Assembly: GCA_030549335.1 (NCBI GenBank)
Contig: CM060188.1
Location: 2,790,001-2,854,000, forward strand
DNA length: 64,000 nucleotides
Reading direction: 5' to 3'
Origin: Pontederia crassipes
Taxonomy: Eukaryota > Streptophyta > Magnoliopsida > Commelinales > Pontederiaceae
In this document: piece after piece, positions 3,001 to 63,235 of the stretch
Layout: every line of letters starts with the position of its first letter
Position numbering within the stretch: position 1 is the first letter of the stretch
Notes under the pieces: generated by a model
Told to the model about the DNA's origin: nothing
Database searches by the model: none
The model's input: only the letters and a program-made list of their open reading frames with translations
Translations under genes and position numbers: made by a program

Positions 3001-4250
3001 ACGTGGTTTTCTGATTTCCGCCAAGCAAAAAGATCTTGATGGAAGGAATTCCACTTGCATGGTTGGGCCATTAAAGTTCTCCACAGAGCTACTAGTCTAG
3101 TCACCTATATTTTTGTTATGATTTATGTTTACGCTCTTATTCAAACAACTTTACTCCTAACTCTAACCTCTAATAAGGTTTATATGGGCACAGCTTAGCT
3201 CATAATAAGATTATGTAGCAGAAAATTAAGATACTTAACATAAAATATGGAATTAAATTAATCTTGAATCATAAAATTCTCAAAAGTATTTCCTAAGTAG
3301 TGCTTCAACTCCCACATCTCAATTCTCCCCTTTGACTCTTCATCAAGCTTACTATATATCCAGATAGTGAGAACCTCATAGTGGGAAAATGCCTTTAACC
3401 GTAGACTTATATTTGCAAAAGATATGTCTTGAACTAATTTCACATGAATAAGTCACAAAAGAAATATTAGGCACATATAAAAAAAGTGATCTTAACATAC
3501 CCCTCGTCAAAAATTATGCCATTGGTGTAATACAATTTAACAAAATTGTGTGGTTGAAGACAAAAAAAAAATTTAATCAAGTTCTTATCAACTTGAATTT
3601 CATTGGATTATATTGAATCAAATAGTGTCATTGGATTACATAATTAATTTTTTTTAAAAATGTAAGTTTTTATCGAGATATGAATTAATGTTCAATAGGT
3701 ATAAATATTTTATTTGTTATGTTTTGACTAAAAAGGATGTCAACTTTTAATTAGATGGAATCAATTCATCTTTAAAAATAAAATATACTAATTAATCAGG
3801 TCGAGATTGATCGGATTTAGAAAATTAAAATCGGATCATTCGAGCCAACCCAATTGAGGTTGGATCATTAGGTTCATCAAATCAATCTGATCCAAAGAAT
3901 ATCTCTTAACTATAATTTAAAAATAGATGGTTTTTCAACTGGATTAATAATATTCAACACATTATCAACTGTTGTTATTTGAAACCCTTATGGAGCTTAG
4001 CATAAATTAAGTGAACTCGGGAAGGCTGTATGCTCAACTTGAAGTAATTATATGACAGTAGTTTGTGAGTAGGAAATATCCTGTGCATTGATTGTGGAAT
4101 ATATCTTTGAACTTAGAATCCAAGATTTTCCTCTGAAAAAAAGGTACACGAGGTATTTGGTCATATGAATTAGGCCGGATTGCAAGAAGTTTGGTATCCA
4201 ACTGAACACTACCCTCATGATCAAATCATTCTCAGAACTCCTTTTCTGGT
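1..4250. other. Intergenic AT-rich DNA, no gene recognised
   Basis: Both strands were read. The open frames here are under 100 codons, have no recognisable motif and lack plausible splice partners. The sequence is AT-rich with homopolymer runs. The only structured item is the 96-bp tandem duplication near 2.6-2.8 kb, listed separately. An untranslated exon or a small RNA gene cannot be excluded by eye. Confidence 0.6.
2616..2806. repeat. Tandem duplication, 2 x 96 bp
   Basis: Two adjacent copies with a 96-bp period, each beginning TGCCTCTCAAAAGTTCTTAC and ending in TTGTTCTTTCGGTAAG. They differ at only a few positions, so the duplication is fairly recent. No coding potential was seen in either copy. 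Confidence 0.9.
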
Positions 4251-6049: not shown

Positions 6050-6560
6050 CTGTTGGTTGTTTTCTTTTCTTTGGGGCCCACCTCAGTAACCATCCACCGC
6101 CCGCCCCCGCCCAACTTCGAGTGCTATTATCGTCGTAAACACGACATTTCGGTCCTGAGAGCAGCTGCACAAGTGCGGGCGGCGATGCGCGACGAGGCCG
6201 GGCCCACAAGCCGCCCCCGGACCATTCAGGTGACACACGCCGTCGGATCACGGCACCGGCCAAGAACGGACGGCCTCGATGATGGGGTGCGTTCTCAAAG
6301 GGTTAATTAAAAATTAAAAGAACACCAGTGGATGATTTTGACCCCCCAACATAAAAAAGAGAAGGAGAACAGGATTCGTGGGGGTGGCACGTTTTGCACT
6401 CCACTGTCGTACGTGTGTTGCGCGAGGTAGAACGAGCCCATGCATCGCGGCGGTCCAAGGTCGATCGGACGGCCACCCATGGAAAGGAGCACGTGATGGA
6501 CCCACCGGAGTCCACCTCATTGATCCTAATCTCGGACCCGTTTCTAACGCTTTAAAGAGA
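6050..6560. other. GC-rich patch without recognisable gene
   Basis: A local GC-rich island in AT-rich surroundings. It holds GGGCCCAC-type and CCCGCCCCCGCCC tracts at 6.07-6.25 kb and a CACGTG palindrome near 6.49 kb. Short open frames exist on both strands but show no known motif and no splice chain. It could be promoter-like DNA, an untranslated first exon or a decayed gene fragment. Confidence 0.4.
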
Positions 6561-40767: not shown

Positions 40768-43700
40768 TCAATGGCTGACATCAGGAATACCAACGCTGGA
40801 GACCATCGCATCATCCACGGCTTTTGGACCACCGCATGATCTAGATACTGATTCAAATAACTTCTCAATCTCGGGGGCGCACCTTGTGAATGAGCGGCTC
40901 CAGAAACTGTAACGCGGATTCTGCAATGAAGACAAATATATAAGTCACGAAACTCCCCATTGGAAAACCACGACAGCTGAACTTCGTTCATACCTTGATT
41001 AACTCGATGAAAGTGATCAACAGACCCCATGGATGAGGACGATTAACTATCAAACGCTCCAACAGAACTCGTGTTATTTGTTCCTGAATAATGTCCTGCA
41101 TTATGCAAGAAGATAAGTTGCCTGCTTGAGTACACTACCAAAATAGAAGCTCACAAGGTACTGAATAATTATTTCCAAAACTATCTGGCTACTAAAGCTA
41201 AAATTCCACTGGGTTTCTTCTGAAGCTTCAACTGCTAAGTTTATCAGCAGTTAGGAGTTTTGGTAAATATCCATATACATATGGTTCTGGTTATTGCATA
41301 TCTTTGTTTCTAACTATTTGATTCAATTCAGCGTTCTTTACTATAATTATATCTTAACTATATCTTGAGCTCACTTCTTTTCTTTTTTTCCTAGAATCTT
41401 AGACGAAAGAAAAATCTTTAAATGAAGTGCGGACATGTGCTAAGATCTTGCAAGATAGTGGTGCAACTTATGTCTGGCCAACATTCTTGATATTTTCTCA
41501 TTACGTAAATACTTGAAGAAAAATGTTTTAACTCGTATAAGTCCACTTTAGTTCCTTTGTCCTACCATATTGAATTGTTTCCTACAATTTTCACAAATCA
41601 CAATTCTCACTCCAAAGGGGAATAATTTTCACTGTCAGATTCTCATGACCTCTGTGCTCGGAAATGAAAGTTCAAGAAAAGAACAATGCAAATTTCAAAA
41701 AGGATATTCTACGTGGATCTACAAAGCAGATTAACAGAAAATCAAACACACTTACCATGTTTACTTCCGCAAATAAGTATAAGAGAACAAATGAGAAGTA
41801 ATGCGTGTGGTTATTTGGGTATCTCAATTGGTTGGCAACTGCATTAAGAAAGAGATAGCGTCCCTCTGTATCCAGATTTTTTGCTAGGCTAACATAGATA
41901 TCCATAGCTGCTGTAACTAGGAATATATCCATAGGGTTATGTGCCACTTGCTGTGTTTGCAAAAGTTGTATAGCCTGCAATACCGGAACAGCATGTTACA
42001 TGCACAACACACATGTCGACAATTGATCACACAACAAAAAATGATCAAGTTAATTGTTGTATATACATATGACAAACTGAAGACATCTTGAACTTGAAGA
42101 ATCATACATCTAACACAAATCAAAGATCTGAAAACAATTTAGTACTTTTTTTCTTTTTAACCACCTGGAAACAAAATAACATGGTATATTTACGTTTTGA
42201 CCTCCAAATTTCAGGCTATAAATTAGCTAAAAAACTCTGGTGAATGAAAAACTGTTTAGGCAACCTAGCAGTCAAGCAACAGAAAAGGCTGCAAAACCTT
42301 AGCTTGTGGTAACCATCTAATCCACAACAAATCTCATCCAAGGGAGCGGTCTTAGTCTTTTAACACTTACCCATCATGAAATAAACCCTATTTTTCATCA
42401 ATCCGTAATCAAACATAAAATTAAAATGTTGGAAAACTAACACCAGTCCTTGATCATATCTAACTAATATTTACGCCATCTGATTACTACGTCTTGGTCT
42501 GAGATTAAATACACCCTTCTTTTTCATTCATCATTAATTTTAACAAATTCAAATACCTAAGTGTATAAGCAAGGAATGGATCTTGTACCTAAGCGTCCTT
42601 TCACAAAAGAAACAATTTCTATACAGAACTCCCACGATTCACCACATGGTATTTTATTTTAATTAAATTTCATGAAAAAAAAAACTTGTAATATTAATAT
42701 GGTTATGTTTTGTCACCTGGCATAATTAATATAACAAAAAACTATAAAGTAAACTAACATAATTTAATACTACCATATACCAGTAGACAATCATCATGAA
42801 ACAACTGCTGGTTTCAAGATTCATCCTACTATCTTATTGTACCTTAATGAAAACATAATGTGGAAGATTAAGATATAAGTTATAATAGACAATCCTTGGA
42901 AAGGTTTCATCTATAAGACTCCAGCAAAAGACCACAGACAGCGCAGATGAAAGAATACCTGGATGCCTACATACAGCACAAGCGAGTTTATTAATGGTAC
43001 ATTATAACGTGTTCCAGCTAGGTTTGCTTCACTTTGTAGAAGTAGTAATCGTTGCTTCAAGTCAGTTAAAAAGGAAGATGCTTCTGGCTTCGTCTGCAGG
43101 AATTCATGATCAGTGGAAGGTCTAATTACATAGCCAACACAACACCCACCAAAATTTAATCATTACCTTGAGATATTCATCAACGTCACCCTTCAACTGC
43201 TTTGCTTTTAAAGCACCCTCAACATCAGAAAGAATCCTTGGAGATATGGTGATTTCAGCGAGGAGATCAATCTGCATCACAGATATAAAAAAAAAAAAAA
43301 GACATACATTACACAATTTTTTTGAGGTACAAAAAAAATTTATTTTTGTTTCCGCTGCACTGGAAATGACTGGCATCAGACGTCAAGTAAGAAACCTTTA
43401 AATTTGGAGTTGATGGGTCAGGAAGCCTCATATTGCGCGGGAATGCACTAAGAATAACGTTACGCATTTGGATGCAACTAGGAGGAATCACATCACAGAA
43501 ACTGAAATGATAGTCGCAAAGAAATTCTGGAAAATCATGCAGCAGCACCAGCAGTACCCTTAGAGTTCCTTTGTACAAGAGCTGAACCTGTATAAGAACC
43601 AACATCGAGCGCAACTACTAATCAATGATTGTACTTTAATGAAGGTGTACCAGAAGATCAGAAGAAACAAACCGCCTGTCCTAGCTCAGCATTTCTTAGA

Positions 43701-46700
43701 TAAGGCTCCATGAATTTGAACAGATCAACAAGCAGGCGCTGGAAGAAAGGCCACCCTTTTGGTGAATTGCATGTCAGCAATTTTGGCATGAAGCTTCTGT
43801 GGCTTACCAACTCAAGCCAAGCAAAGCTGCAATCAATTTAATACGATATGGACGCATATCTTAAAAGGAGGGATAAAAGAATTGCTCAAGGACATAAGTA
43901 GAAATAACAACAACAACAACAACAAAGCCTTATCCCACTAGGTGGGGTCGGCTACATGGATCATACGACGCCATTCCGCTCTATTAGTAACCAAACCTTT
44001 CGGTATATTATTCACCAATAGATCTTGCTCTATTAGACATAAGTAGAAATAAATCAAGAGATAGTACTTTGACAACTTCTAAAAAAAACAAAACTTAGAC
44101 AATTACATAAACTAGACTAGGAACAAAAATCCTTCATTCTACACTCATTAACTATCAACTAAGCAGCTTGCTGAAAGCATAAGATAGAGAACCAAAGAAA
44201 CGAAAGAAACAAAATTTTAACAAACAATCCAAAATGAAGAAATCAGATGTGACGAAGGAAAAAGAACAACATGTCATTCTGATTTATCAACAGCATGCAG
44301 AAAGGAATCAGCAGAAATTCTTAAAGAAAGGGCAACACATAATGCCCTAAAGATCTTTGACGGAAAAGGATGATCCTATGATTCTCACCCAGCATATTAA
44401 GTGAAAATAAATACATATAAACAACAAGTGTAATATTCTATACAGTTATAGCTCATTTGTCCTTTCAATAAATGCAACCCAAGTGCCCTCTTCAATCCCT
44501 AACCAGCCAAGGTAGCTAATTAAACTTGTACATGGGTAGGTTAAGTTCTCCCTCTTCAATCCCTAACCAGCCTAGATAGCTATTAAACTTGTACATGGGT
44601 AGCTTAAGTTGTCCCTCTTCAATCCCTAACCAACCTAGATAGCTATTAAACTTGTACATGGGTAGGTTAAGTTGTCCCTCTTCAATCCCTAACCAACCTA
44701 GATAGCTATAAGACTTGTATCTTTGTCATCTGATTCTTCTTTTGCACAAAGGTAACCCCCCAACTTTGCCTTACTTTCGTGTGTAGATAAACAAATGGGA
44801 TAGAATGTGGTATTACATGAGGGCATAAGTAGCTAGTGGTGATCTCTATTTGACAATTGCTATCCCATTTTTGAAATTTTGAGTTTGGATTTTTATTTTT
44901 ATTGTTTTTTATATTAATATATTGAGATTGCGGTGAACGAAGCGTTGTATCACTGCAGCTTCATTCTTGGTCTTCGTCAATAGGGAAACATCGGGCAGAT
45001 GGGTGCAGCCGTAGAGGGGAGATTGACAGGTCTGTCCATTGACCCCCATGCTCTTTGTGCTGGCAGTCGGCACCCTTGCCACCTGCACCTAGGCATCCTA
45101 CGAGGCCGGCCTCTTCAGCAACTTCGCTGGGATTCATGTTCCCCTACTGTAGTGTGCGGACTACATGGTATTTTTTTCATCAAGAGCACTGATCAGGAGG
45201 CCAGATGGGTGACCATCCTCGTGGAGCTTTTTGGTGCAATGTCCGGTCTTCAAACTAACCATGCCAAGTCATCCTTCAATCCTTTTGGCATGGTCATTGA
45301 AGATGCATCTCGATGTGTGGCTGAACTTCACACTCCGACCAGCACCTTGCTGATCACATATTTGGTCCTTCCTCTCTCATATCACCACATTAGCTTACCC
45401 CCAGTGGAGTCCAATTATCGAGTGACTAGAACACTCATATTAAAAACAAGGACTGCACCACTTCAGAGGCTGTGGGGAAAAGGACTCCCCCTACATCTCA
45501 AGAGCCCTCTCCCCTCCCCTCCTAAAAGCTAGAGGAAGGGTCAACCTCCGCCCCTGATATATTATTTTTTATGGTGTCAATGAAAGAAAAATATACTACT
45601 AAAAACATCTGCTAGTTGGGGACTGCAAAAATATTTGGGGCGATCCGCAAAATTGATGGCTCATTGGTGTAATTTACCCTGCTCGTCATAGTAAATTTCT
45701 TCGCCAAAGTGACTTGGTTCCTTCAAAGCCAAATGACCCAAACCCATTGATATTTGGAGCAGTATCCAAGGTCCTACTTGTTTCCCCATCAAAACTTAAT
45801 GTAACACGAAGCTCTATTAATTTAATAGTAAAGGGCAGGGAAGGGAAAGAGGGGGGTAATAGTTTAACCTGTTTAGTTATAAATGGAGGGGAAAGTAGGG
45901 AAAGACCCCTTCATTCCCCTCCAATATGTAAATTTTCTTTCAATCCTTTCCTCAAAAAAAAAATTCCTTTCAATCTCAAGTTGGGGTGTAAAGATGGGGA
46001 GAGGTTTAATTAAAACAAATTTGACCTTATGAAAGTAAACATGTAGAAATGATTACTTTTCTAAATCAAATTATCCTTTAATTTTCATTTAGTTGTGTCA
46101 TCCAAACAAGGCTAATTCTTTACCTTCATTCTCGTCCATTTTCTTCCCTTCTTTACCTTTCCCTCCATTACCTTCCCCTTCCTTCTACTAAGGACTCTCC
46201 AACCAAACAAAGCTAATCAAGTTTATTTGTTATTTCATTTGTCTTTTTTATCTTAAGTTGATTTGTTTGTTATTTCGAATCTTATTGAAGTTGAACTTTA
46301 TATGTAAACTTATATGAGTTTCATTAATATGAATAAAATTAGAGGACATTTTGCCTAATTGAATTTTGTGTTATTTTATCCTGCAAACTCACAATGTCTC
46401 ATCAGATTGAAAGAGATGATAAATTCAACACACACCAATTGGATATCTTACTTTATTCTGTGAATTCACGATGCCTTATAAAATTGATGCAAAAGATGGA
46501 TTCTATAGGTTTTCATAGCACAAAATTTCATGATGGACTCATATAACAAAGTTTCATGATTGTCTTCAATGAATTCCAATGATGATGATAGATTGTGTAA
46601 TTATTTTTCTAATCAAATTGAAGCAGATGACAGATTTCGTGATTGTTTCATTGCTCGCCTTATCTCATCGCCATGTCACTCCACCTACAATGATCTTTCA

Positions 46701-49700
46701 CAAATCCGAAACAAAATAAACGTAAAGCAAAGTTTTCTAATTCAGCAACAATTGGATGATCCAAAGAATAGAGCTATGTTCTTAGACATCAAACTGAATA
46801 GATGCCAAAATGATGATATTACAATATACTTGTTGGGAAAAATGCAAGTATATTAATAATGAACCTTCAAATGAATTAAATGAACCTTCAGACGAATTAA
46901 CTTATGTTACCTGATTATTTAGTTAATAGTCATGGAAGGTAAAACACACTTAATTTTTATGTCAACAATCAAAAGATAAAATGACAATCCATGTTATCAA
47001 TCTTGAGCCAAAATAATAAATAAACAATTGTGTGGTAATAATTGAAAAAGAGAACTGTTTTCTGTACCTCCAACCAGGAACTTTCAAGGGTTGCAGAGCA
47101 TGGAAAGCATTGGCAAAATAAGTCAGCACCTACAGCAACAAATTCAAGAGGACGTACGAGATATGGATGTGAGATAGTTGTTTTTAGAGTGAGATTTTAT
47201 TCTAAAGAAAATATTGCACCTGGAAGTTGGCATTATCCATCACATCAGGAGATGTGAGGTCCAAAAGCCAATTAATAAACAACCTAAAGTATGGCCTTGG
47301 ATTGAAAGCCATTTTCTTTTCTTCTGCATCTTTTTGGATCACACGTACTGCCACAAGCAAAATCTACAACAGCAAATAATGTGATTCATTGATCACAATT
47401 GTATAGCAAATAAACGAAGTAATATCACTTCTAGTTGAGAAGTTGAACCTTTGGGAGCAGAATAGATTTTGTTGCTCCTTGATCCAGCGAACAATACTAA
47501 AACGATAAAAGAAGTCAAATGAATAAAAGAATCGCAACAGTTATTTGTAACAATAGATCATGCTAAAAAAAATGTTCATTCATATACGTAACCAGAAACA
47601 AATATATGCCCGCATATAGTAGTAACTAAACTCACCTTTAGAACCAGAACTACAAGCTTTGCACATGAATCAATGGAAGAGAAGGAAAACTGCTGTGACA
47701 CTGAGTTAATAGTAATCACATGCTCTGGCACAGATAAGCATTGGGACACAGAAAGTTCCTGAAGATTATAATACTTGAACTCAGTATCTAAAACCAGCAC
47801 CGATTTTTTTTTATTTGTAACCAAAAAAACATAGAAGAATACCATGAGAATACGGAAAAAACGATCTGTGGTATCATCGCCCAGAAGGAAACCATTTTGC
47901 TGCAACTGAGAGATGTAATGACTGAACACTGAATCATTTGTTGTGGGCAGATCACATATTTGAGACCACTCAGCAAAATAAGCAGCAACCTATAGATATA
48001 AAAGAGAATGCTCATTAAGTTCAAAAAAGACTATATAGAAGAATTCACACAATGAAAAGAAGAAAACAATAAAAGATTTATGAAGAAGAGACAGAAACAA
48101 CAACAACAAAGCCTTATCCCACTAGGTGGACAAGAAGAGACAAGAAGAGACAGAAAATGATATCAAATTTCGTAAAAAAATATAATGTATTGTATTACAG
48201 TGCAATGTCATTTAGGATGAGTTTGATAGGTTTCTTTTTAAAGGCAAGATGGGTTTGGTAGCTAACGTACAACCATATGTAACCAAACTGCAAACATTAA
48301 TACCACAGTGGAATAGTGATCTTGGATCATTCAGTAATAGCAGCCTTAAGCAATTTTCTTTTAGAGCAGAAAATGATGAGTATGTGTCAACAAAAAAAAT
48401 GTGGGAAGATGTACGAGTTTTTTAGGAGAAAAAGAATGATTACCAAGATTTGCAGTTGTCATCCATGTGTGTATATATATATATACAAACATATATATGC
48501 ACATGGACACACACACACCAGTAGAGCTATGAAGTATAAATACAACATAAGAGTGAGAGATAATGAAGTACTACCCCTACTAATGCATCGAAGAGATTAA
48601 GTGATGTATAACACATCACCGTCCTCCCTGACCCCCAACCCCCACCAACCCACCAAGAAAAAGCATCCTATGTACACAGCAAACACATCACTCGTGGAAT
48701 TGCCGTTGGGGAGGGCAATCCAGGGCATGTGCTGAACTGTATATAGGGTTAGCTAAGATTGGCAGATAGTCATCCCCAAAATAGGGATGTTCAGCCTGAA
48801 GCAATTTTATGTACCCTAAAATAAATACTCAGAGAAAACTATGGAATGCCAAAATGTTTAGCTTAATAGAATATCTCTGAGAATCACTACTTCATGTAAG
48901 TATTTTTTTTTTTTGAGGAGGTACTTCGTATAAGATTGTCTAGTGTAAATATGTTACGCCCTTAGTTCTGTAGTGTTCTTGAACCAATGTCAAACCAATT
49001 GTGTTCAGTAACTGTTCTGATTTTCATTTCCTTATAAAAAATGGGTATTTCCCTCTCAAGAAAAACATGGATAATTGGATATAATGGAGGACCTACCTAC
49101 TCAAGTAGGTAGGAGCCTCCTAACTACATTAGATGCCATCCCTCAGATGGCATCCGTAGGAGCACGCTGACCCGGATAAAAACACTTGAATCAGAGCTGG
49201 TCCACAAATTATTTCTGCAGACAGTGCCCTCCTCTTATGATCGTGACCTCGCGACATGCGATCGGTGACCCGTTGCTCGTGGTGTTCGTCTCCTCGCCAT
49301 CCTGGACATGCACGATGTCGCTGACCTTCGAGTTGTGCCCCAGACGACGATCACCGCCGCCCTCGACCTTGCGCGATCCTCGCTGCAATCGACCTCGTCG
49401 ATCCTCGCCGCTGTTCGTCCCTCGCCTTCACCATCATCGCTCGCAGCTGCCGCCCTTGAGCTTGCCAATCCTCACCGCCATCTCTCGCCCTCGCCATCGT
49501 CGCTTACAGCCGCCACCAACGGTCGTGCCCTCGGCGCCATCATCCTCGCCCTCACCATCGGAGATCGTGTGGAACCACGAGGCGAGGTGAACATTGATGG
49601 ATGACATTCGGTGAAGAAGGATTCACGAGATGGATGGCATAGGAACTCCTTCAGTTTGCCGACGAGAAATCAATAGTCAACGATGACATGGAGAAGGACG

Positions 49701-52700
49701 ATGGCGGCGAGTCGAACGTTTCGGGAGGTGGACTGGAGACGAACGCCGCACGAGAGACTCGAGAGGAGAGAGAACGGCTTGGCTGAATCCAATCTCAACT
49801 GAACCGCTAGGTTTTTTCCACTGAATCGCACCATTTCGATCAGCCATTGATTGCCGATCAGACGGCCGCACGCGTGAGTAGGACGGTGATGCCAACACAT
49901 TGTAACCTGATAGATAAAAGAAGACTATTTCCACCAAGCATCCTTCCTCACTCAAAATTTTAGAACACTCACTCTTTTGAAACGGAGAACACAATTGTTT
50001 TTACTTTAAATAATACAGAGATATTATCTTATCCCCAGATTTATCTGGATTATTGCCAGTTAATGGAATTTCAATTCCAATCAGACTCAGCCGATCCCCT
50101 AGGATGGCCTTGTTCTATATCCTATATCTCTATTGTTCGCTAGGTATTCCTTTCATTTGCAGCTATCAAACAAATCAATGAAACTCCGTAGCAGAAATAA
50201 CTATTATCTCTTCGGAGAAAACAAATGCAGATATTATTTAGATCATAAAAACATATGAAAGTTCAAACCTGCTCTCGGAAACCAGGAGGATCAGCTGATA
50301 GTGGTTCACCAGAAATATATTCCTGTCTGCTTGTTGATGAGCGAGCAGAAAGAATCTGCGAGAAGACAAACAAATATGACACTATCTTAATATTCTTAAT
50401 AAAAGTAGTGATGATTGACACAATGGATTCACCTTTACCTTCTTATCTCTAAGTTGCTTGGCCTTCTCTTCCTTGTTAGCACTATAACTAGGTGAGTTAA
50501 TGGTGTTCTTAGCGATCTCAATCAACTGCTGAAGAGATTCTGGTGACCCTGGTCTCATTGCAAGCTGCAACATGGAACAAATTTTAAAGACTCCTTATTT
50601 GAAGGACATAGTAAAAATCATCAGGAAATAGTGCAGAATAACATGTACTTTTGTCAAGGCATCCATGAGATTGTATAGTTCTGACATGCTGACAGCAGGT
50701 TCCTGAACAAGTAAAGTTTGAACGAGGGATATTGCAAATTCGGTGGCCGCTTCTGTGGAAGATCCCAAGTAGTTTAATGACCCAACAAAAGAAACTAAAA
50801 CTAGAAGAACATTGCAACACAGAAAGACAAGGCAGATAAATCACGGAGTTCACAGGGCATGACACATCCTCAATACGAGTAAAGGGCAGATTAGCTGTGC
50901 CCTCTACTCACCTTTGCTAGAGTGAGTGTATCTTTAAAATTTGGTCATTCATAATCACTCAAGCAGTTAATGTTCTAATCTCACAAAATAAATTGACATA
51001 CTATTTCTCCCTCCATCAATAAGCTTTGCAAGATGGACATTGTACTCAGCAAGGTTGAGCAATTCTGAACGGACAAGACCAACCGTTATTTCTTTGTTAA
51101 ATTTCCGTTCTTCATCTGAATAGATAACCTGCAAAATCGGAACACCACATTGTTCATAAATTGTAATTGAAAATTAAGATTTGATTGTCCAGCAGGAAAA
51201 TCAGCAACCAAATGACCTGAGGAAACATTGGTTTGGCATAGTAAAATTTGCTTGATAATTGAAAACAAAATCCCATATAATTCAGAGAAGATATATGAAT
51301 AGAGAGTACAAGATAGTAATAAGGAAAGAAGGAAAGAAGAATGTCATCAATAATTAATTTACTACATACCCAGCTAGTCAATTCTTTGACAACAAGTTTG
51401 CACACATCTCGTATAGCTGCTAGAATTGCAAGATGTGAAGCAACATGAAGACTGTTCGATGCATTTTCATATAGACTTCTAAATACCTGAATCATAGAAT
51501 TATTCCATCATCATAACTAGGTAAGACAACAACTCAGCGAGAGGAATAAATAAACTTTTAGTTAAAGGAACTGTACCTTCTGAGCAACAGCCAGTGCAGC
51601 CTCATCTCGGCTTACACATCTTAGTATGATATCAGGGACCTCAGCTACAATCACCTGAATGCATGTATGCTAAGAAACATCAGCAGTTTCTTTTGAAGGA
51701 GAAAAGGATGACCACGATATCGCAATCACTCAACAAGAAAGAATAATATAGAAAACATCAACAAGACAGAAGAAAGATGCCGTGAAGACTGACCTGGATT
51801 TCTGCATCATTGGCATCTTTAGCAATCAACGCTTCCAGCTGCAAAGGAACAAAAGTAGGCACAACTAAGATTTCTGTGTCCAAAACCCTAAGGGGAGATT
51901 TCCAGGTCCAAATGCAAATTAAAGAAGACAATGCAACATAAAATTACAAAACAACACAAAGTACGTTCCTTTTCCATCCAGAATGATTCCAAAAGCTATT
52001 ATAAACACAAATAGAAACAAGATAGAGCAGTAAGGGAGTCTACAGTGATGGCCATGCAGTCTATGGCTAACCCAACAAACAGAACGTGCCAACAGCATAT
52101 GTCGGGTGATTGGGGACTTGCCCTCCAACCTTTATAGTTCACCTTCATGTAAAACTTCTGTATATTACATAACTCATGGGGTCATTCTTTCTTACCCTCC
52201 TAACTAGGTTACAATTCAAACAAAGATGACGAGCAGAACTATAAAAAAACTGTGCTAATTTGAGCTGGTTAACTTAACTCAGAACCAAACAAGACCAACA
52301 TTTTAATGCATACAACACAAAGACAGAGAAAGGAATATTTTAGTGACCCTATATAGATTCTGCAACTTTTCTGACTTTGTTTCCGACAAGCAGATGAAGT
52401 AATCGAACTCAACACAAGAATTATAAGACAAAGGATAATACAACTTTTTTTTTATTATAAGACGGATAATACAACTTTTTTTTTATTATAAGACGGATAA
52501 AGTAGCCGACCCCACCTAGTGGGATAAGGCTTTGTTGTTGTTGTATAAGACGGATAAAGCGTTGGTATGAAATCTATTTAAAGAAAAAGTTCGAATTTGA
52601 CAAGTCGATATAAATGAGATAACTTGAGGCGTTTACCCTTTGTGCAATTTGTTGGTACTTCTCCAACGCATCTCCAGTACTCAACAATGAATCGGGTAAA

Positions 52701-55700
52701 CCAGTTCCAAGCCGATCCCCAACCGGAAGAGGTGAAGATGGAGCAACAGATCCTAAATCCTGTCACCATATCAAATGAAGTCGTGCATACATGTAAATAA
52801 TATGTAATGGTAAATTCAGTAAGTTTGAATAAAACGATTTGAGAAAAGTTGGAAGCTACTGACATTTGATGAATCCACAATCTGAAGCTCGGAAGAAACA
52901 GCAGTTGATGGAAATGCATCAACCACCGAATTAACTTCACTACCATGTGGGATAAGGCTATCATTAGACATTCCATGAGTAGGCAAAACACTAAAATAAC
53001 AAAATATAAATCAAATGTCAGTTATAATCCAAGTGTAACAAAATAATATATGAATTACGAAAACATAAAAAGAATACACCAAATGACCTGAGTAATTGTG
53101 TTGAAGGTCGTTCTTTTTCTTCTGAGATAATATCCAAGGGCTGAGAAACAGAACCGAGCGGAGCTACTTGTGATGTCGAGTAGACACTAGAATTCTGCAA
53201 CGACGAGTTTGGGCCATATATACGAGACAAGGACGTATTAACAGTACTAGCAGTGATACTGGGAGGACCAGAAGAAGCAGCACTCACACTCTGGCTAGGT
53301 TGATTTTGCCAAATATTTTTTATGAACTCCTGCATAAGTCATTCAAATTTGTTAAGGACAAACCTATATGCTACAAATTCAAGTGAAGGGAGTGTGGATT
53401 GTGCTTTTACATCATAGACGCGCTGTTGGGCGGGTGATAAACGACCAGGTTTAGGACGAAGTGCCTCAGGTAATCGTGCATATGGACCTTGTGCGTAAGT
53501 GCCAGCATCATAAAATGCAGAACCAGCTGCCTCTCTCTGTTTTCTTATTGCAGAAAATGCAGGGCCTATCTCTCCATCGATCAACTCTACAGCCTGAAAT
53601 GTTTTCAAAGGCGAGAAGGGTTGGAACATCTTGAAATTCATTTGATTGCAGGAAAAACAAAGAGACAAGCTGAATCTTTTGTATAAACAACTTAACACTT
53701 TAAAGCCAACAACTTTCTGGCCTCACAAGTTTAACAAAATTAAACATGAAAAATTCGAAGAAAAAAAAAGAAGAAAGGGAATGGCTTTCACCTAAGTTCC
53801 AAATAATTTTTAGCAACAAGAGAAGAAACTAGTGAACAAATATGTGAATCATAATGTGATACTTGGTTATCTTTCATTCTTGTCAGGTGCATACCGGGTA
53901 CAGTAAAGGTATAACACCAACAGATAACCATTATACCTCAATACACCCACAAATTTAAAAAAACAACATTTGACTCAAAAAAATCCTAGTTAATGCAAGA
54001 ATAATTAACCACGCCCCCCCCCAAACAAAAAAAAGGATAAAATAAGATAAACATGACATCATCTGGAAAAGATATGCCAAAATAAATGTGATGAGAAAAG
54101 AAACCATACTTTTACTCTTTGGAACATGGAGAAGTCAGATTATCTGTAGGGGAAATTTAATCGTAGAATAATGAGAACCACAATTCTGGGTGATCATCCT
54201 TTTCTCTCAAAAAAAAAATTGTAGAATAATGAAAGCTCTTATGAGTTTTAGCCACATCTGACAGTTGAAATACAAACCAATAGCAATATTCATTTCTTAA
54301 ACAACAGAAACAAAGAAAAAATATAGAAAAAATATCTAAAGCGGATTCCCACTTACAGAATGTAGCACTTGGCAATACCTTTTTTTTCCCTTTTTCCCCT
54401 TTAAGGGATTTCTTTTACTGATCTATTCCGTACCAGTTGATGAAATAACATATTGAACAAATAGAAAGTAACTCTCTAATAGATTACAATTTTATTTAAA
54501 ATAAAAGAATCACTGATACAAACAAATAACGAGAGAAATGCAATACAACCTATACAGCCTATTCCTATGATGCTGCCACAATGAAAGTGTAGTGTAACAA
54601 AGTACATAAAAGACAGACAATTTTTCAAAAAGTAAATTCTGAATGAAAGGGCAATTACCTTTTCAGAAGCAACATTTTCAATCACTGCACAACCAAGATC
54701 CAGATGATCTGTAGTAAGTATTTGAACTATCTGGTCGATCCGCTCAGTAGTTACATTTAAGGCTTGAAGAAGACTTCTAAGGTGACTTGACAAGGACACG
54801 CGGAGTGGTTCCTGAAGATTTTCACAAAGTTAACAATTACTTCTTAAGAGTGCATACAATAGACAATAACACAAAATGCATGTCACATTACTCCAAGGCC
54901 AAAAGAGATGTTACACCAGGCAAATGTAAGAGTTTTAGGGATCATATGTATTAAAGTCAAACGAGTTAAATAATTTGATTGCCAAGGGAAAAAAGGAAAT
55001 ACCTTGCAAGTCACATGAGCTAAACTTCCAGCTAATGTTCCAACCATCAGGTGTGCTGCTCGAGATATAACACCATCATCTGTCTCCAAAGCATAATCCT
55101 GCACAGAGTACAAAGAAAGGACCAGGTCAACTTGTACATAGAAAGTTTTTCTTTTTTTTTTAAGAAAGTGATCATTTAGGTACTCAAATAACAATAAGTC
55201 ACATTCTGCTAAGTTTGAACGAGGAAATTGGTTTGTAATGCAAGATGAGAGTAACAAACTAAATGCACCTTTAACACAAGTTCCTTAGTTGTCCGGCTAG
55301 CTATGGTAACACTCCGTTGGATAACTGGGGATACAATTTCTTTGATGGCCCTATCCATAGCAGCTTGAAGAATTCTGTAACAATGAAGATGTTAGAATAA
55401 AATAATTAAAATTGAGGTACCTGCATTGACAAGTTCTTTTCTTTTGAGAAATTATAGGATGATTACCAAGGATGTAGTCATCAATACCTGCACTGTCAAA
55501 TTAAAAAAAAAAAAGAAAACACCCTTGTAAATAAATACCTCTGGAATTGCACTTGTGACCCCATCGAACTAAGCTTCGGATTGATGTTTATATAAGAATC
55601 AGCATTCGGAATTATAGTCATAAGCTGCAGAAGTTACCGACACAAATAAAAACATGCTAAACACATGAAGGTAATGAAACATTGAAAAGAGAAATTAGAA

Positions 55701-58700
55701 ATATCTTGAGGTAAAACAAAACCTGATTCAAAGAAAATGGAGATGGAGATGGAGATGGAGAAGGTGATGGTGAAGGAGATGGTGATGATGTAACTTGGGT
55801 CAAACCCTGACCAGATGGGACACGTTCAGGAACATTAAGGGGACCAACTTTATCATCCTCAAACATGGTACTTGAAGTGAAATTCAAAGGAGCAGCAAAC
55901 TGAAAGCAACAAAATGATATAATAAGACACCAATTATACAAGGAGTAAGACAATGTAAAAATAAGGAAGTTAACAACCTGTGCAAGAACATTATGGTTAG
56001 CTGGATGAGATGAATTACTGACATCAGGCTGTATTTCCACATGATTCAACGATGATATTATGCCAGAATTGTCCACGATCGTCGATGTCTGGCCAGCACT
56101 ATTATCCTTGTTGGAAAAATCTGGATTACCTTCCACTTCACGTACCTTATCTTTAAGAAGTGTTGTTGGGGTAACTTCTTTCATATCCACGGCAAGGTTC
56201 TTAAATAAAACCTATAATTTTCCAATAGAATAAAAATTTTGGCAAAAGAATAAATGTCTAGTGCAATGAAAATTTGAAATAGGGTGGAGGTGAGAAGCAA
56301 ATACCTCAATATCAAATTTCAGGTTCATTTTAAGGTTTGGATGATTATAAATCTCAACAAGTAAACTAAGGATGCCCATGGTCCATGGATTAGGAGGTTG
56401 ATATGCTAAACTTGATTGGCATGGTTCCAGAATCTACAACATATTATAGTGTATTAGCAGAAAAACAAAAACAAAAAAAAAGTTTGTTAATAAAGAAAAT
56501 TCAACTTAACTACCTTTGAAGTAAATGGTATCACTGCGATCATTAATCCCTTCTCATATGCCTAGCCAAACAAGAGAACAAACAAGTTACGAACACAAAC
56601 GGCAAAGAAAAGTGAAGACGTGCCCCTACGAACATAGGTGGCTTTAAATAAAATAACAATAGGGTAGGATCTGCAATCCAAAGGGATGTGACAAGAAAAG
56701 GAAGCTTAGGACAGTTTAAATTAACAGAAGAAGCAAAACTTCATTTCACCTCAATGATAAGAGCCTTTGGGTCAATTTCCTTGGCTCGTAAAGCCTGATT
56801 TCTACCAATTGTAAACTTCCCGAGCCAGCTACCAAGGTTCTTTAGCAATGACCGCTCTTCCGAGCTGGATTTTATAAGATCGGATCTCAGCAACACCTAA
56901 AGCGAACATGAGTCAGAACGTAAATAAATTCATCCCATAACAACAGAAACATTTATATTACACGAATGAACCTTGCAATTCTCATAAGTAGCTTTCACAA
57001 TCTCCTTGTTCAATGATTTGGAGTTTACTTTGTCCAAAAACTTGAGATACAAATCATGAAAATTTGGCTCAATGCTTGCCCTGTTAAAATTCATACAAAG
57101 GGTCATATAATTTTGTAAAAATAAACAGAATTATCCTAAAAAAGAGTGAAAAGTTAGACGACTTCAAATAGATCTTTGTTTCACCTTTTCATCACCATAT
57201 ACTGTGCAAACCAAGGATAATACTGTTCCTTAAGAACCTCATTAAATTCTTTTGCTTTGGCATCCATATTAGAAGTTGAAATGTTATTAATCATAAATAA
57301 TATCTTGTCCTGGATTTCTGACGAAGGAACCTGAACAACACAAAAGGAACAGTAGTAACAAGTTGAAGAAAATGAAATGACTGCATTGGACACTATACAA
57401 AAAAATCCAACAAACCTCTATAGGTGTATCTCTTCTTTCTGCAGCAGCAACAAGTGTTTCAATGTTTAAAGCAGCCCCAAAACCGGTGCTGTAAGAAGGT
57501 TGCCGAAGCATACCTACAACACAGAAAATGAATTTATAATTAACTTCACAAGGGAGTATTACGAATACCAACTAATGAATATGATATGGACACCTTTAGC
57601 AACATCGAAAGAGAGTAATATCCTTCTAAAAAAAAAGAGAGTAATATGCACAAATAGTGCACACTAATCTACAACACGAAGTAGGAAAAGAACAGAATCT
57701 ATAGTGCAATATGACAAAAGACCAATAACTTCTACCAGTAGATGCCGCACTCCGGGAGCGAAGAAAACCAGGAGAGGAAGATAAAGCAGCTGTGGCACTG
57801 GCAACATGATGAGGGGAGGATTGCAGAGACTGCATAGTGATCAGAAGGATACTAAATGTAACTAACAAAAAGAGAAGTTGAAAATACAATATAGTGATAC
57901 ATAAAAATTGATTCTGCACAAGTCCAGTTTATGACAACATGACAGAAACTTTTAATACCTTCTGGCTGGTGACAGACTCAACAGCTCCAGGTACAAATGA
58001 AGATTGCAAAGGATGTGATGGCATAGGTTTTGTGTAGTTGACAAGTCCATTAGGGGCTTTAAGCCTTTCGCCAAGAAAACCTTGATGCCTCTGTTGCAAC
58101 TGCAATGAAGAAAGCTGTTGACTTAACTGCGTTGATGCTGAACCTATAAGCTGCCATGATGCCTCAGATACCTGGATTCATATATCAGAACTAAATTAAA
58201 AGGTTCTACTAAAAAAACTAAATGAAAAGGTCAAAGACATTTTGGCTTTGGACGCTGAAAGATGCTTCAAAAAGTCGATAAAATTTGGCATAGCTGGAAG
58301 TGGAACTATAGCAGAACTTTTTCCCTTGAGAGAGAATAGACGGATTTTGAAATACCATGCACACACGAGCAAAGAAACAGACCTATAGCAACCCTTTTTC
58401 CCCTGTGAGGGGGAATTGACAGGTTTTGAAATTCCGTATGCACAAACACAACCCTAACATTAATATCTATTAGAATAGGCTAGTCAATGCAAACAAATCT
58501 ATGCTTAAGCTTCTATGCATTACTAGACCATTACAAGAAATAATAATGAAAAATGAGTTAAAATACAGCACCAAAACAATGACTTGCTAAGATAGTTCAT
58601 ACATGAAAGAACTATCTATCAGTAAGACATGTCATACCTCCATATTGTCAATGGAAGATGCTACAGAACCAGGTTGCTGATCAATAGGAACAGAGTTGCT

Positions 58701-61700
58701 ACCACTTGTTTCCGACTGACTAGATGAGATCCTTGCAAGTGCGCGCTCAATGAAAGAAACTAGCTCAGCATGTGTTGCACGCAAATGAGATATCTGTAAT
58801 ATGTGATTGCAATATTGTGGCCATTCTACCAGACGATCAGTGAACTGCTCCAAAGCTTTGGTGCCAAACATAAACATCTGCACCAACAGTTTGTTATTAA
58901 AAGGTTAAAAAACTTAAAACAGCAGAAAGCATTATTCATCAATTAATTTATCAACCTTTGAGTCAACAGATTTCCGCAATGCATCAAGAACTCCACGTAA
59001 AGCAATGCCCAGAGTAAGATGCGTAACAAGTTGGTGTTTTATCAGAGAACCTGCAAAACATTGTAATGAAAACAAAAATAGCAAGAGAAACATGGAAGAA
59101 TACAGGGCCCAGATAGTAGATGGAATTATATAAGAAATAAACACTCACCAAAAAGCACGGCCACCAACTTAAGTTGTCTATCTGGATACTTTGGGAAGAA
59201 CTTATACTCTTCAAAAAGGTTGCGAATGATGCACTCAAAGATCAGCTGCTCCCTGTAAAATTTATATCGAACCAGTAGAAAATATTTATCATATACAAGT
59301 TCTTGCAACAGGAACCATTTTAAGACAATTCAGTAAAGAGAAATCCGTTTGTTGACACAATACAAACTCATCACTAGAGTACACAAAGCAAGGTGGGTGC
59401 ACAATACAGAAATACGTGTCATGGGTGGGGCTGGTGAGGAGGATATTGAACATCAGTTTTTGGCATCAATTGCCACCGAGGCGTGGCACCACATGGGATA
59501 TTCATGGATTGACATTGCTACTGCTGAGTCTTTCTAGAGGCCATTCAGCTCATATGGGGAGTGTGTCCCAAGCCACACTGATTTTTCCGTGTCCCAATCC
59601 ACATGGCTGCCGCATAACCATACCACCTTGTATTGGGGAGTGGAAAAAATATTTGTAATGTAGCAACACTTTTTGTACCAGTTGAATTCCAACTTTTCTT
59701 TTGCTTTCGTTCAAAAAATATGTTGTAACCTTTTATTACCTCAATGGAACCTATGGATGACTACCATATTGCTAATCGTTCTCTCTCATTTAAAGAAAAA
59801 AACTGTACCACCTTCAAGGGTGAGATATGCTATGTGGGCAATACTGTACATCTATGCCTTTCTTGGAAAGGAGTGGGAAATGGGTATGTGAACTATTTGC
59901 TTCAGCACTCACACTCACTCCTAGGTTTTGTGTTTTGGTCTCCCCTCACACGCACATGACATATCTTTGCTTTTATCAAACAAAAGAATGGCTACGTATT
60001 GGTGTTGTCATCTTTTCCCCTTCAGAAAGAACTTTAACAACACAAAATGATATCTATACAAGTGATAATATCACGGCCTTGCCACTCGGCAATGAATCTC
60101 CAGGAAAAAATATATGATTCAAGGATAATAATGGCACCAACATCCCAAGAGATTTCACAACACCCATCATAAAAAGATTCAAAGACACCTCAACATATCA
60201 TAAAAGGACATCATCAGCATATCACGACCAAATTCCCGTAACATACTAGACGCTGAAATTCTTGAGTAGCACTGAGTGGAAAGAAAAACACCAAAAATAT
60301 ATAAAAGCTTAATAATATATAGAATAAATTTGGAACTGAAAAAAAAATGTAGAACAAGAACTGAACCAATAAACCATTAACTATATAAAGCCACCTACAC
60401 TGCTAGAAAATATAGCACCACAACCAAATACTATTTCAAGAGACATAAGGAAGAAAGGATTCAAATGTTACAATCATGCAAGACAAAATATATCTATCCC
60501 ATTGTCATACTGAACTAGAGTTTGGATCTATTTAAAATTCATCCAAACACAAACCATATATATAAAGAAATGAGTAAGATAAGGATTTCTGAACTACAAA
60601 CTACTAAAATACATCATATTCAAAATAGAAATAAAAGATGGCAAGAGATCGAGACAAATGTAACTCTTGATGAGAAAAAGCAACATATAGAAGGACTTCC
60701 TTAAAAAAATATATGGTCAGGTACTGATAATATAATCTAGCCCCATTTCATTCTACCTACATCTAGTCCAATAAACAGAAATAAATCAAAATTCTTCATT
60801 TCAATCAAATAGAAGACAGTGACCATGGTTCTGTTTGACAAGGTTAGTGGCTTGATATGGAAAATATGTCCACTTTGGACAATATGGAGAGAGAGAAATG
60901 AATGTATCTTCCGGAATTCTCGATTCTATATTGAGAATTTAGTGGAGGGAACTACACATGATTAAGAAATGGGCAACATATAGTTGATAATTAATATTCT
61001 CATACTTCTAAGTGACATTTTTTCCATAACAATAAAATAGATCTCTGAAACGTCTGAGATCCTTCCTCTTTTCAGTCCATATCCGATGGATGCGTATGGT
61101 TATCTGAGTCCTTCTCAACGCGCAGCCTCTACATTCGATTCCTACCATCCATCACTCTGTATATGGCGGTTACATGTGCCGTTGAAAGTCACGATCTTTG
61201 CTTGGCTTCTACGGCACGGCCGGCTTCTCACTAGGAGGTACAGGGCGAGATGGGCTCCTCACAGTGACACATCCTGTGTGCTATGTGACGAGGCAGAGGA
61301 GGACATCACCCATTTATTTTTTTACTGCCCAACGGCTCGAGGCGTGTGGCAGCAAACCAGCATTGCGGGCCTCTTCTCATCAGATTCGGAGAGCATGTGG
61401 CACTCACTTCGTGGTTTAGCCCGTCAGAGACAAGGATGGAGAGCGTCTTTCGCGACCTTTTTGGCCAATGCTTGGGGAGAGATGTCAGACTGAGGGTATT
61501 GTATACCACATCCTCTTTCTTATCCGGCAGTGGGGTTTTGTTTAGCTGGGACACTTCCTATTTTTTGTTGTTGCCCTCCCTTTGAGAGCTCACATTTGTA
61601 CATGACTTTCAGTTCACAGTTATATATAGATGGATGACAACCACAACTCTGGTGGTCATCATTTTTCTCCTAAAAAAAATCCTTCCTCTTTTCAAAAAAA

Positions 61701-63235
61701 AAAAGTTAGTGGCTTGATTGGGCAGTAGTATTTTGATTAACAAATAGCGATTAACAACAAGTGCATAGTTGTATGATCAGTAAATTTGATAAAATAAATA
61801 GATAAAATCTTAAACGTATTAGAGATTATTCTTATAACAATACAACAACAACAAAGCCTTATCCCACTAGGTGGATTATTCTTATAACAATAAATAATTT
61901 ATTTATCATTTTTCAAATAGTTGATTTATTTTAAACTTTAAGTATAATTTTTTTAGGACACTTTAAGTATAGTTTCAACATAAAAATGAAGAAAAAGTTA
62001 CTCAATTTAAATAAAGGAATAAAAAACTTTTCACTTTGATAAGAAAAGAATAGAAATATGAGAAATCATAATATACAAAGTGATATATGGTTATAAAAAA
62101 GAAAGAATAATCAAACAAATATATTTTTAAAGAGACAAGAGGACATTTTAGAAATAAAATATCAAGCCAATAACTTCTTTAAAAAAGTGTTTACCAAACA
62201 CCTTAAGAGAAGTTTTAAATAGGTCAAAATTCTATCTTCAACAAAGCAGTTCATATACTAGTGGGTATTGCACAAAACAAAAGCACTATGATATTGTATT
62301 AAAGAAAAAAAAGGAATGCTCCCTAACAACAACCATAACTTTTGTTTTGAAAGAAATAACAACTACCACAATGAAGTTTGCATAAAATGATGGCAAGACA
62401 AAGTGAAAAAATAATAATGTAAAAAAAAGTGGCAAGAACGTGAGTTTTATTATGCAAAGGGCTAACTAGACAGAATACCACTTTCCTAAATCCAGTAAAG
62501 GAAAGAGGAGCAAACTAACCGCTTTTCAGATGACTCTTTAAAACGTGCAAGCATTTGAACCATTGAATCAATGGTTAACTGCCCAGAGAACATCTGTTGG
62601 AAGTAACTATTTGCATCCGCTTCAACATCATCAGAAACTGTTTCATTACTTGCTGATTCTGTTGTTCCAGTAATTGGTGCTTTTGGGTTAGATGAATATA
62701 GCTTCTTTATTTCTTCAAAAGAATGTTGAGCAGCAAGCTGACCGGAATGAGTTTGAAGAACCTACATAAAACAGTTATATTGGTCCAACACACATGGAAA
62801 GAATTGATTTTATGCTGATATGAGGCATTAATATAACTTTTCATTTTTTGAAAAGAGATTATTATAAATATTTCTTTGTGTAAAACCTTGAAAAATACAG
62901 GGCATGCATCCTGGTAAGCATTCATAATAGTCACACGAGATACTTGAACAGGACTATCCAGGACTTCAACTGTTCCATTGTTGACCACATCTCTCAAGAA
63001 TTCGAGGCATTGCTGGAAAAAAAAATATTTTCAGAGAAACACTTCAGCAAGATCATCATCATTTAAACACAATAGTATGTGTTTAATATATGTGTACCTC
63101 AAAGAAAGCATCTCTGCATGTACTCAAGTTATCATTCAACCAGTTCTCAAGATTTATCTGTTCTTTTGCAGATGCAATTGCAGCCAATTTAATGCTGAAC
63201 GAGAAAGGAGCAGCAGCCAAAACTGATTGCAAAAT
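40768..63235 (-). CDS. NOT1: CCR4-NOT complex scaffold subunit NOT1 (3' part; N-terminus outside the window)
   Basis: NOT1 is the large scaffold of the CCR4-NOT deadenylase, which shortens poly(A) tails in the cytoplasm and so controls mRNA decay. I recognise 43 exons with GT-AG junctions and consistent phases (5724 nt with stop; 1907 residues). Plant NOT1 is about 2400 residues, so roughly 500 N-terminal residues lie beyond 64000. In protein order there are a helical region ([10 protein letters not shown]..., [11 protein letters not shown]), a Gln/Ser-rich linker, the MIF4G-like CAF1-binding region ([25 protein letters not shown]), the CNOT9-binding DUF3819 region ([19 protein letters not shown]) and the C-terminal NOT1 superfamily homology domain, ending in [11 protein letters not shown]. 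Exon coordinates are in the four block entries. No frameshift or premature stop was found, so the gene looks functional. Some exon edges could be off by a few bases. Confidence 0.95.
43908..44035 (-). mobile_element. 5'-truncated SINE (Au-like), 128 bp, in a NOT1 intron
   Basis: Read on the minus strand it ends ...CCCCACCTAGTGGGATAAGG, then a CTTTGTTG...(TTG)n tail, as in Au-type plant SINEs. It is flanked by a perfect 17-bp target duplication GACATAAGTAGAAATAA (43891-43907 and 44036-44052), which proves retrotransposition. Pol III box sequences are missing, so the 5' part was lost on insertion. This is the longest of four related fragments in NOT1 introns. Confidence 0.85.
44486..44719. repeat. 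Minisatellite, unit 63-64 bp, about 3.7 copies
   Basis: Units start CCCTCTTCAATCCCTAACCA at 44486, 44550, 44613 and 44676. Each contains TATTAAACTTGTACATGGGT, except the last, which is partial and diverged. It lies in the 3.2-kb NOT1 intron. Confidence 0.9.
45040..45480 (+). mobile_element. LINE reverse-transcriptase fragment in a NOT1 intron
   Basis: A plus-strand frame reads [16 protein letters not shown] and, further on, [15 protein letters not shown]. These correspond to the conserved FG..SGL..N..KS and ITYLGLPL blocks of plant LINE reverse transcriptases. Just upstream, in another frame, CADYMVFF (45153 onward) is a decayed YADD active-site box. Frameshifts and the missing flanking domains show that it is inactive. 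Boundaries are approximate. Confidence 0.7.
45868..46213. mobile_element. Probable Tourist/Harbinger-like MITE, 346 bp, in a NOT1 intron
   Basis: The left end CCTGTTTAGTTATAAATGG and the reverse complement of the right end (GCTTTGTTTGGTTGGAGAG) are imperfect inverted copies. Similarity continues inward (TGGAGGGGAAAG). TAA flanks both ends (45865-45867 and 46214-46216), consistent with the 3-bp target duplication of that group. Confidence 0.45.
48098..48130 (-). mobile_element. 33-bp SINE 3'-end fragment with target duplication
   Basis: Contains only the (CAA)n tail and the AAAGCCTTATCCCACTAGGT end of the SINE. It is flanked by AAGAAGAGACAGAAA at 48083-48097 and 48142-48156. Ten bases of the duplication are repeated once more between the element and the right copy. 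Confidence 0.8.
48466..48520. repeat. TA/CA microsatellite
   Basis: TATATATATATA and CACACACA tracts in the 47990-50268 intron of NOT1. Confidence 0.8.
49084..49120. repeat. Inverted repeat (foldback) in a NOT1 intron
   Basis: GGAGG...CCTACCTAC, a short loop, then GTAGGTAGG...CCTCC form a long imperfect hairpin. A second hairpin, GATGCCATC-CCTCA-GATGGCATC, lies just to the right (about 49131-49153). Both are next to a GC-rich intronic segment. Confidence 0.7.
49155..49790. other. GC-rich insert-like segment in a NOT1 intron
   Basis: About 600 bp of GC-rich sequence (CGCCGCCCTCGACC, CTCGCCATCGTCGC) within an otherwise AT-rich intron. Open frames of up to 134 codons exist on both strands, but they are low-complexity (Ser/Pro/Arg/His) with no motif. 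It may be a captured gene fragment or a transposon; its origin is unknown. Confidence 0.4.
50269..53593 (-). other. NOT1: NOT1 exons of the middle linker region
   Basis: Exons: 50269-50355, 50439-50564, 50649-50752, 51002-51128, 51370-51486, 51577-51654, 51794-51838, 52637-52759, 52864-52990, 53088-53329 and 53411-53593. They encode the region between the CNOT9-binding part and the C-terminal domain. Part is well-folded helical sequence ([32 protein letters not shown]). Part is a Ser/Pro-rich linker ([18 protein letters not shown]) that is probably disordered. Confidence 0.88.
52503..52543 (+). mobile_element. 41-bp SINE 3'-end fragment with target duplication
   Basis: The plus-strand core TAGCCGACCCCACCTAGTGG runs on through GGATAAGGC into (TTG)n. 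It is flanked by TATAAGACGGATAAAG at 52487-52502 and 52544-52559. A further partial copy of the flank (near 52.43-52.47 kb) is an older local tandem duplication. Confidence 0.85.
54659..57513 (-). other. NOT1: NOT1 exons encoding CNOT9-binding and CAF1-binding (MIF4G) regions
   Basis: Exons: 54659-54811, 55003-55098, 55269-55374, 55539-55624, 55723-55899, 55978-56211, 56305-56433, 56514-56561, 56750-56896, 56972-57080, 57185-57330 and 57416-57513. The first four encode the DUF3819-like CNOT9-binding helices. The 55723-55899 exon encodes a serine-proline dipeptide repeat (about eight SP pairs) in the linker. The remaining exons encode the MIF4G-like domain that in other eukaryotes binds the CAF1 deadenylase. 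Confidence 0.88.
58306..58450. repeat. Imperfect direct duplication, about 77-bp period
   Basis: Two diverged copies within the 58172-58637 intron share blocks such as CTATAGCA, CTTTTTCCC and GGTTTTGAAAT/GGATTTTGAAAT and end in a related ATGCACA stretch. No function apparent. Confidence 0.5.
59385..59650 (+). mobile_element. Decayed LINE fragment, zf-RVT-like
   Basis: The plus-strand frame KARWVHNTE...[12 protein letters not shown] resembles the RARW...[13 protein letters not shown] segment of the better preserved LINE copy at 61.1-61.5 kb. It is frameshifted and lacks the Cys/His residues. Boundaries are uncertain. Confidence 0.45.
60857..61704 (+). mobile_element. 5'-truncated LINE 3' end, interrupted by a second LINE
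   Basis: Plus-strand sequence at 60857-61074 encodes [20 protein letters not shown], typical of the C-terminal end of plant LINE ORF2. The element's 3' end resumes at 61695 as a poly-A run. A 14-bp target duplication GTTAGTGGCTTGAT flanks the whole block (60843-60856 and 61705-61718). The middle (61075-61694) is a later insertion with its duplicated target. Confidence 0.7.
61075..61678 (+). mobile_element. Inner 5'-truncated LINE with zf-RVT domain
   Basis: A 604-bp insertion flanked by the 16-bp duplication ATCCTTCCTCTTTTCA (61059-61074 and 61679-61694) and ending in TAAAAAAAA. It carries a nearly intact plus-strand frame with the zinc-binding reverse-transcriptase C-terminal domain: [41 protein letters not shown]. 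The Cys-Cys-His-Cys ligands are visible. It lies in the sense opposite to NOT1. Confidence 0.82.
61843..61873 (-). mobile_element. 31-bp SINE 3'-end fragment with target duplication
   Basis: Only (CAA)n and AAAGCCTTATCCCACTAGGT followed by GG remain. Flanks are GATTATTCTTATAACAATA at 61824-61842 and 61874-61892 (19 bp). It is the shortest of the four related insertions. Confidence 0.82.

Follow-up and report, generated by a model that had tools for sequence, protein, structure and literature searches.

Short copies of an RTE-type LINE in Pontederia crassipes and two-piece copies with a proposed origin by template jumping

Plant RTE LINEs, for example RTE-1_Stu, the partner of the tobacco TS SINE, are described in parts of two earlier reports (PMC13295347, PMC3747384). 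They share with the element studied here a 3' end of TTG repeats, an endonuclease and a reverse transcriptase, and a T-run about 10 nt before a target-site duplication that begins with T, whereas most copies sampled here are two-piece composites. PMC13295347 also cites a 2018 study of RTE-related short retroposons. An RTE 5' end joined to an RTE 3' tail, as in our composites, is likewise found in Bov-A2, RTE1-N1, MAR4 and RTESINE1, which the relevant section of PMC3747384 lists as families. A 5' ribozyme in truncated form is a further shared feature: twisters that are truncated yet competent, sited at the 5' ends of RTE retrotransposons, are mentioned in a passage of PMC7761336, which refers to work in preparation by Martin and de la Pena and is silent on composites and breakpoints.

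The MINE elements of Magnaporthe, whose chimeras are attributed to template switching in a passage of PMC2104539, resemble our composites in having a constant 5' RNA, a 5'-truncated LINE tail and duplications around the whole. They are given there as 31 copies with a 1.1-kb non-LINE RNA, whereas the copies described here run to thousands and the LINE's own 5' end would be the second template. A LINE with a second RNA in one insertion is termed occasional in the published passages concerned and is the majority class in our sample. Three features are already known singly, namely template-switch chimeras, elements that join RTE 5' and 3' ends, and twisters at the 5' end of RTEs; searches of an open-licence library, which omits many papers, did not show them combined in a majority class whose acceptor is fixed.

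Insertions in the NOT1 window and their parent LINE

The window, which is the whole stretch of 64,000 nucleotides analysed (C6:2790001-2854000, assembly GCA_030549335.1), had been described in a preliminary description as carrying four insertions in NOT1 introns. The host gene was borne out by Pfam matches to Not1 PF04054 at 43312-43614(-) and 41675-41995(-) and to Not1 DUF3819 at 54479-54829(-); three further stretches gave no match in the same search. The four insertions with their own target duplications of 15-19 bp were also found, at coordinates agreeing within about one base, and are listed below, with starts given as bases before the core used for searching.

43891..43907: left target-site duplication of the 128-bp copy, 17 bp
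43908..44035, minus strand: 5'-truncated RTE LINE 3' end, 128 bp (LINE nt 3032-3151) plus TTG repeats; 98.3% over 120 nt
44036..44052: right target-site duplication of the 128-bp copy, 17 bp
48083..48097: left target-site duplication of the 32-bp copy, 15 bp
48098..48129, minus strand: LINE 3' end, 32 bp, start at -9 (in the 5' arm of the hairpin)
48130..48141: 12 extra bases, a partial second target copy between the 32-bp element and the right duplication
48142..48156: right target-site duplication of the 32-bp copy, 15 bp
52487..52502: left target-site duplication of the 41-bp copy, 16 bp
52503..52543, plus strand: LINE 3' end, 41 bp, start at -18/-19 (one base common to the duplication)
52544..52559: right target-site duplication of the 41-bp copy, 16 bp
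61824..61842: left target-site duplication of the 31-bp copy, 19 bp
61843..61873, minus strand: LINE 3' end, 31 bp, start at -8/-9
61874..61892: right target-site duplication of the 31-bp copy, 19 bp

The separate duplications of 17, 15, 16 and 19 bp uphold four independent target-primed insertions, three of them very short. For the copy at 48098, the element and its 15-bp duplication stood as first described and its extent was corrected, the element ending at 48129 and being followed by the 12 extra bases. The 17-base core matched the window four times with no mismatches, against a mean of 0.05 matches in shuffled sequences even with up to three mismatches allowed. Exact matches to the LINE 3' end covered 29, 39 and 29 bases of the 32-, 41- and 31-bp copies, and the 128-bp copy was open in the LINE frame up to the LINE stop codon. 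No LINE piece was found in two 5-kb stretches flanking the window. An open stretch at 61041-61490 (+) of the window may resemble the C-terminal part of another non-LTR retrotransposon.

The SINE parentage first proposed did not hold, since the tail reads as part of an open LINE frame and a 3151-bp LINE copy lies on contig C1 (L025:989-4139) between 16-bp duplications. Pieces of L025 matched the Pfam endonuclease domain PF03372 (32.5 bits) and RVT_1 PF00078, the latter with 33.4 bits on one piece and 19.7, under the cut-off, on another; L025 itself has an interrupted reading frame. The 3' hairpin takes in the LINE stop codon, and the C1 copies end in (TTG)n repeats. The first base of the duplication was T in 90% of the composites (39 duplications) and in 86% of the bare copies (21 duplications), with a T-run at -11 to -9 in both. 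From its 3' end, size, domains, target signature and a C-terminal motif that we take to be RTE-like, the parent is classed as an RTE-type LINE. Reversed LINE sequence gave no match in the sampled stretches. A SINE is ruled out by the LINE frame and the LINE 5' end, and an Au or TS SINE was rejected in particular, the 5' part of the composites being LINE nt 1 to about 120 and not tRNA-related; a scan for intact tRNA genes in six loci found none. At L016:4080-5199 a LINE copy holds an inverted and a directly oriented segment side by side, the arrangement that ordinary twin priming produces.

The LINE begins with AACTCCGCC, directly after the predicted twister cut. By cmscan, twister-P1 (RF03160) matched 19 of 20 composite-bearing stretches with 44-68 bits, L063 being the one without, and the LINE itself with 59 bits; the gathering score of 67.2 was reached by one match only. 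The P1 helix is not encoded in the element, as its upstream (5') strand sits in the host flank; a passage of a review describes P1 as dispensable. The putative ribozyme may cleave the LINE RNA.

Two-piece composites in the genome and the C1 sample

Searched for genome-wide, as the preliminary description had suggested, the exact core was found at 25,077 places (12,611 + 12,466) in the 1.13-Gb genome, while the reversed core had no match. A sample was taken as 89 stretches around 100 listed C1 places, chosen by exact core and spanning the first 4.8 Mb of this one contig. It yielded 101 copies with up to two core mismatches, that is, the 100 listed places and one mismatch copy. The idea of a common and easily missed insertion class was thus right as to a large class, but its bigger group is not the short footprint: 61 of the 101 copies were composites, in which a 5' piece from LINE nt 1 to about nt 113-120 is followed by a 3' tail whose length varies. 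Extrapolated from the C1 share to the genome, about 15,000 of the exact-core copies would be composite.

Whether a copy was composite or bare differed across the zones in which the 3' tail stopped (P=1.2e-7):

Tail up to 19 nt: 3 composite, 10 bare
Tail 20-45 nt: 41 composite, 0 bare
Tail 46-70 nt: 15 composite, 7 bare
Tail over 70 nt: 2 composite, 23 bare

The lack of bare inserts at 20-45 nt gave P=0.0005 in a uniform-stop test. Tails of L065 and L092 were set to 18 from the duplication (the automatic values, 26 and 27, extended into matching flank) and that of L049 to 50 for the same kind of extension; L045_590, L064 and L085 were assigned composite by hand. The junction recount omits L045_590, to which the 5' piece of its neighbour had been assigned, and so rests on 59 composites instead of 60, and the likeness test given below also omits L012_8485, which shares its flank with L014_4912 and represents one event with it; both copies are kept in the 61 of 101 and in the zone counts.

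The 5' piece ended at nt 113-120 in 54 of 59 composites (one of the 54, L045_421, is doubtful), with a mode at nt 115; the five exceptions ended at nt 103, 107, 110, 137 and 155. Where the two pieces shared no bases, 25 of 28 junctions had the end at nt 113-118. One to nine bases were common to both pieces at 30 of 60 junctions, so that some composites may be internal deletions guided by microhomology, and one or two bases were added at 5 of 60. Forty-six of 59 composites extended to nt 1 and the other 13 began later. A strong duplication was present in 34 of these 46, ending no more than 2 nt from nt 1 in 30 of the 34. Altogether, a strong duplication surrounded the whole composite in 39 of 61 cases and was not found for the remaining 22 within the sequence stretch examined. 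Genome-wide, the composite-junction pattern (exact flanks and a spacer of 0-12 only) occurred at 6405 places and an unbroken 5' end continuing into the LINE at 1545, with no place found for the reversed controls of either pattern. At L045:287-620 two composites lie head to tail, the second without its first bases, from serial jumps or nesting.

Start points of the short bare copies

Bare inserts as short as those of the window made up 10 of the 101 C1 copies, compared with three of the four window copies, a difference probably due either to chance or to selection that favours small inserts in the introns of NOT1. The ten sampled copies began 4, 6, 8, 9, 12, 13, 14, 18, 18 and 18 bases before the core and the three window copies 19, 9 and 9. 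Two of the window copies had been described as stopping at the 5' side of the hairpin and one about 8 bases beyond it; the two shortest begin inside its 5' arm, so that they lack the outermost C of CCCAC-CTA-GTGGG, and the third begins at -18/-19. Clear duplications of at least 13 bases flanked six of the ten sampled copies, L046 and L068 had duplications of 7-8 bases, and none was found for L028. L019_5985 (minus strand) carries an 18-nt LINE tail, then 52 further bases and then the left duplication; it may not be bare, because its 15-bp duplication requires the 52 extra bases to be in the insert, and is perhaps another kind of chimera. At L022:4940-5200 (minus strand) a short insert that begins 6 nt ahead of the core and has a 30-bp duplication lies directly behind an older LINE tail whose hairpin is lost.

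Three start positions were counted genome-wide with patterns that required six non-consensus bases ahead of the element; starts inside the core are invisible to these counts, as the core was the search word. The raw counts were 55 at -9, 75 at -16 and 221 at -18; scaling for the chance of passing the pattern raised them to about 206, 574 and 1433, indicating a preference beyond the hairpin among the three counted positions (about 1433 at -18 against 206 at -9). Among 100 listed of the 221 places at -18, 25 were composite-like and 4 internal-deletion-like. Eight of the 75 places at -16 were composite-like and 10 had the word ATATAC in common ahead of GCCGACC, which may reflect one copy that has spread or composites that gained a C. 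Six of the 55 at -9 looked internal-deletion-like by eye. The truncation points are thus unevenly spread, both in the C1 starts and at the three positions counted genome-wide.

Possible routes to the composites

We consider it likely that the short inserts are 5'-truncated RTE LINE copies and that the composites arise through template jumping in target-primed reverse transcription. The LINE RNA would begin at the twister-ribozyme cut and end in TTG repeats, and the LINE enzyme would nick a T-rich site and copy the RNA from its 3' end, departing from this first template within the last 100 nt in most sampled copies. Copying that ends no more than about 20 nt from the core would often leave a bare short insert, as in the window, while a stop 20-45 nt out would be followed by a jump to a second template, as in every sampled case. 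This second template would be the 5' part of the LINE RNA, which the enzyme would enter at roughly nt 113-120 (12-19 nt beyond the A of the AUG at nt 102) and in most cases follow to nt 1, so that a SINE-like composite stands in a single target duplication. Judged from the DNA, the acceptor would be an RNA with a real 3' end near nt 113-120. Template jumping fits because the donor stop is variable, the acceptor start nearly constant, the copy runs to nt 1 and one duplication surrounds the whole; a constant acceptor, a variable donor stop and one duplication are also the marks of LINE template-switch chimeras. The proposal leaves the broad spread of donor stops (33-48) unexplained. A protective hairpin at nt 87-113 was not preferred as the cause of the 5' breakpoint because its predicted energy, -2.2 kcal/mol, is weak.

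A tentative reading of the hot spots, which we hold possible but doubtful, is that they mark ribosome edges on the LINE mRNA and that the enzyme copies ribosome-protected mRNA fragments end to end. Two in-frame AUGs, at nt 96 and nt 102, precede the endonuclease region; L025 has an extra AUG at nt 42 that is absent from the composites examined for it. The modal 5'-piece end, nt 115, is +14 from the AUG at nt 102, and the -18 start, the commonest bare start counted, lies 14 nt before the UAG. The 5'-piece end would then be the front edge of an initiating ribosome and the -18 start the rear edge of a terminating one. On the mRNA, the cover of an initiating ribosome extends to about +15 to +17. 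For the -18 start the agreement is close without being exact, with 14 nt here against a peak of plant degradome 5' ends at 16-17 nt in a passage of PMC7998949, and the broad donor stops lie outside its account as well. If this were true, the genomic composites would be a fossil ribosome footprint.

It is unlikely that the composites form an ordinary SINE-like family spread from master copies, with junction changes inside the masters or by later small deletions. Compact families of RTE 5' and 3' ends are known in animals, namely Bov-A2, RTE1-N1 and MAR4 (in the part of PMC3747384 cited above), and some spacers recur, the commonest in 10 of the 100 listed among the 6405 genome-wide junctions. 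However, these 100 hold 38 different spacers, and there were 39 distinct junctions among 59 composites, not tied to lineage: sequence difference was 5.5% in 23 same-junction pairs and 5.6% in 1252 other pairs (51 copies). Identical 5' pieces also carried different junctions, as in L023, L062, L090 and L094, whose tails of 48, 46, 38 and 35 make four junctions. Since the junctions vary widely and same-junction copies are no more alike, the join was probably made anew at insertion. In 37 composites that could be typed for both 5' and 3' alleles, linkage between the two gave P=0.05 overall and P=0.03 in a single allele class, which is too weak to build on, and a 3-nt periodicity of donor stops was not found by eye among the composite junctions.

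Alternatively, the LINE RNA may have been internally deleted before copying, by cutting and ligation or an unusual splice, and then used as one short template, which would make a jump unnecessary and agrees with the sharp 5' border. We regard this as quite improbable, as there is neither a GT directly after nt 113-119 nor a constant acceptor of a splice, and several copies suggest jumps. L064:221-400 has tandem 5' pieces, both ending at nt 116 within one 19-bp duplication, although the inner piece stops short at about nt 74; this single case fits a double jump with two entries at the same acceptor place. An extra partial copy of the LINE start stands before nt 1, inside the duplication, in L023 (4083-4108, the first 26 bases) and in L054 (the first 19). 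Similar partial copies precede nt 1 in L060, where a 13-bp duplication overlaps the partial copy, and in L086, where no duplication was found; the extra copies in all four span the first 17-26 LINE bases. At L018:4824-5204, inverted LINE nt 120-to-1 is followed by a 262-nt LINE tail, with a duplication of about 11 bp; this single case looks much like twin priming in which the second primer was set at the same end of the RNA (nt 118-120).

Finally, the preliminary description took the inserts for SINE 3' ends at which reverse transcription had stalled at the CCCACCTAGTGGG hairpin, which is very improbable: the hairpin is predicted, and two window starts and the sampled starts at 4, 6, 8 and 9 lie inside its 5' arm, but the tail is part of a LINE and carries its open frame, six of ten sampled starts lie beyond the hairpin, -18 is the highest and the hairpin arm the lowest of the three positions counted genome-wide, and the enzyme would reach the 3' arm first, yet the copies keep nearly the whole hairpin.

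Template jumping during reverse transcription, as the junctions suggest it, would have several consequences. LINE template switching is usually termed occasional. In this genome it seems to be the predominant outcome, with thousands of events, and because these events have base-level junctions, the rules of reverse transcriptase arrest and jumping could be read from the genome. It offers a route by which SINE-like elements may arise from a LINE without a tRNA. Annotation that names the composites SINEs, or misses the 31-bp copies, would misjudge both LINE activity and intron evolution. The composites are an unusually clear record of how an element copies itself.
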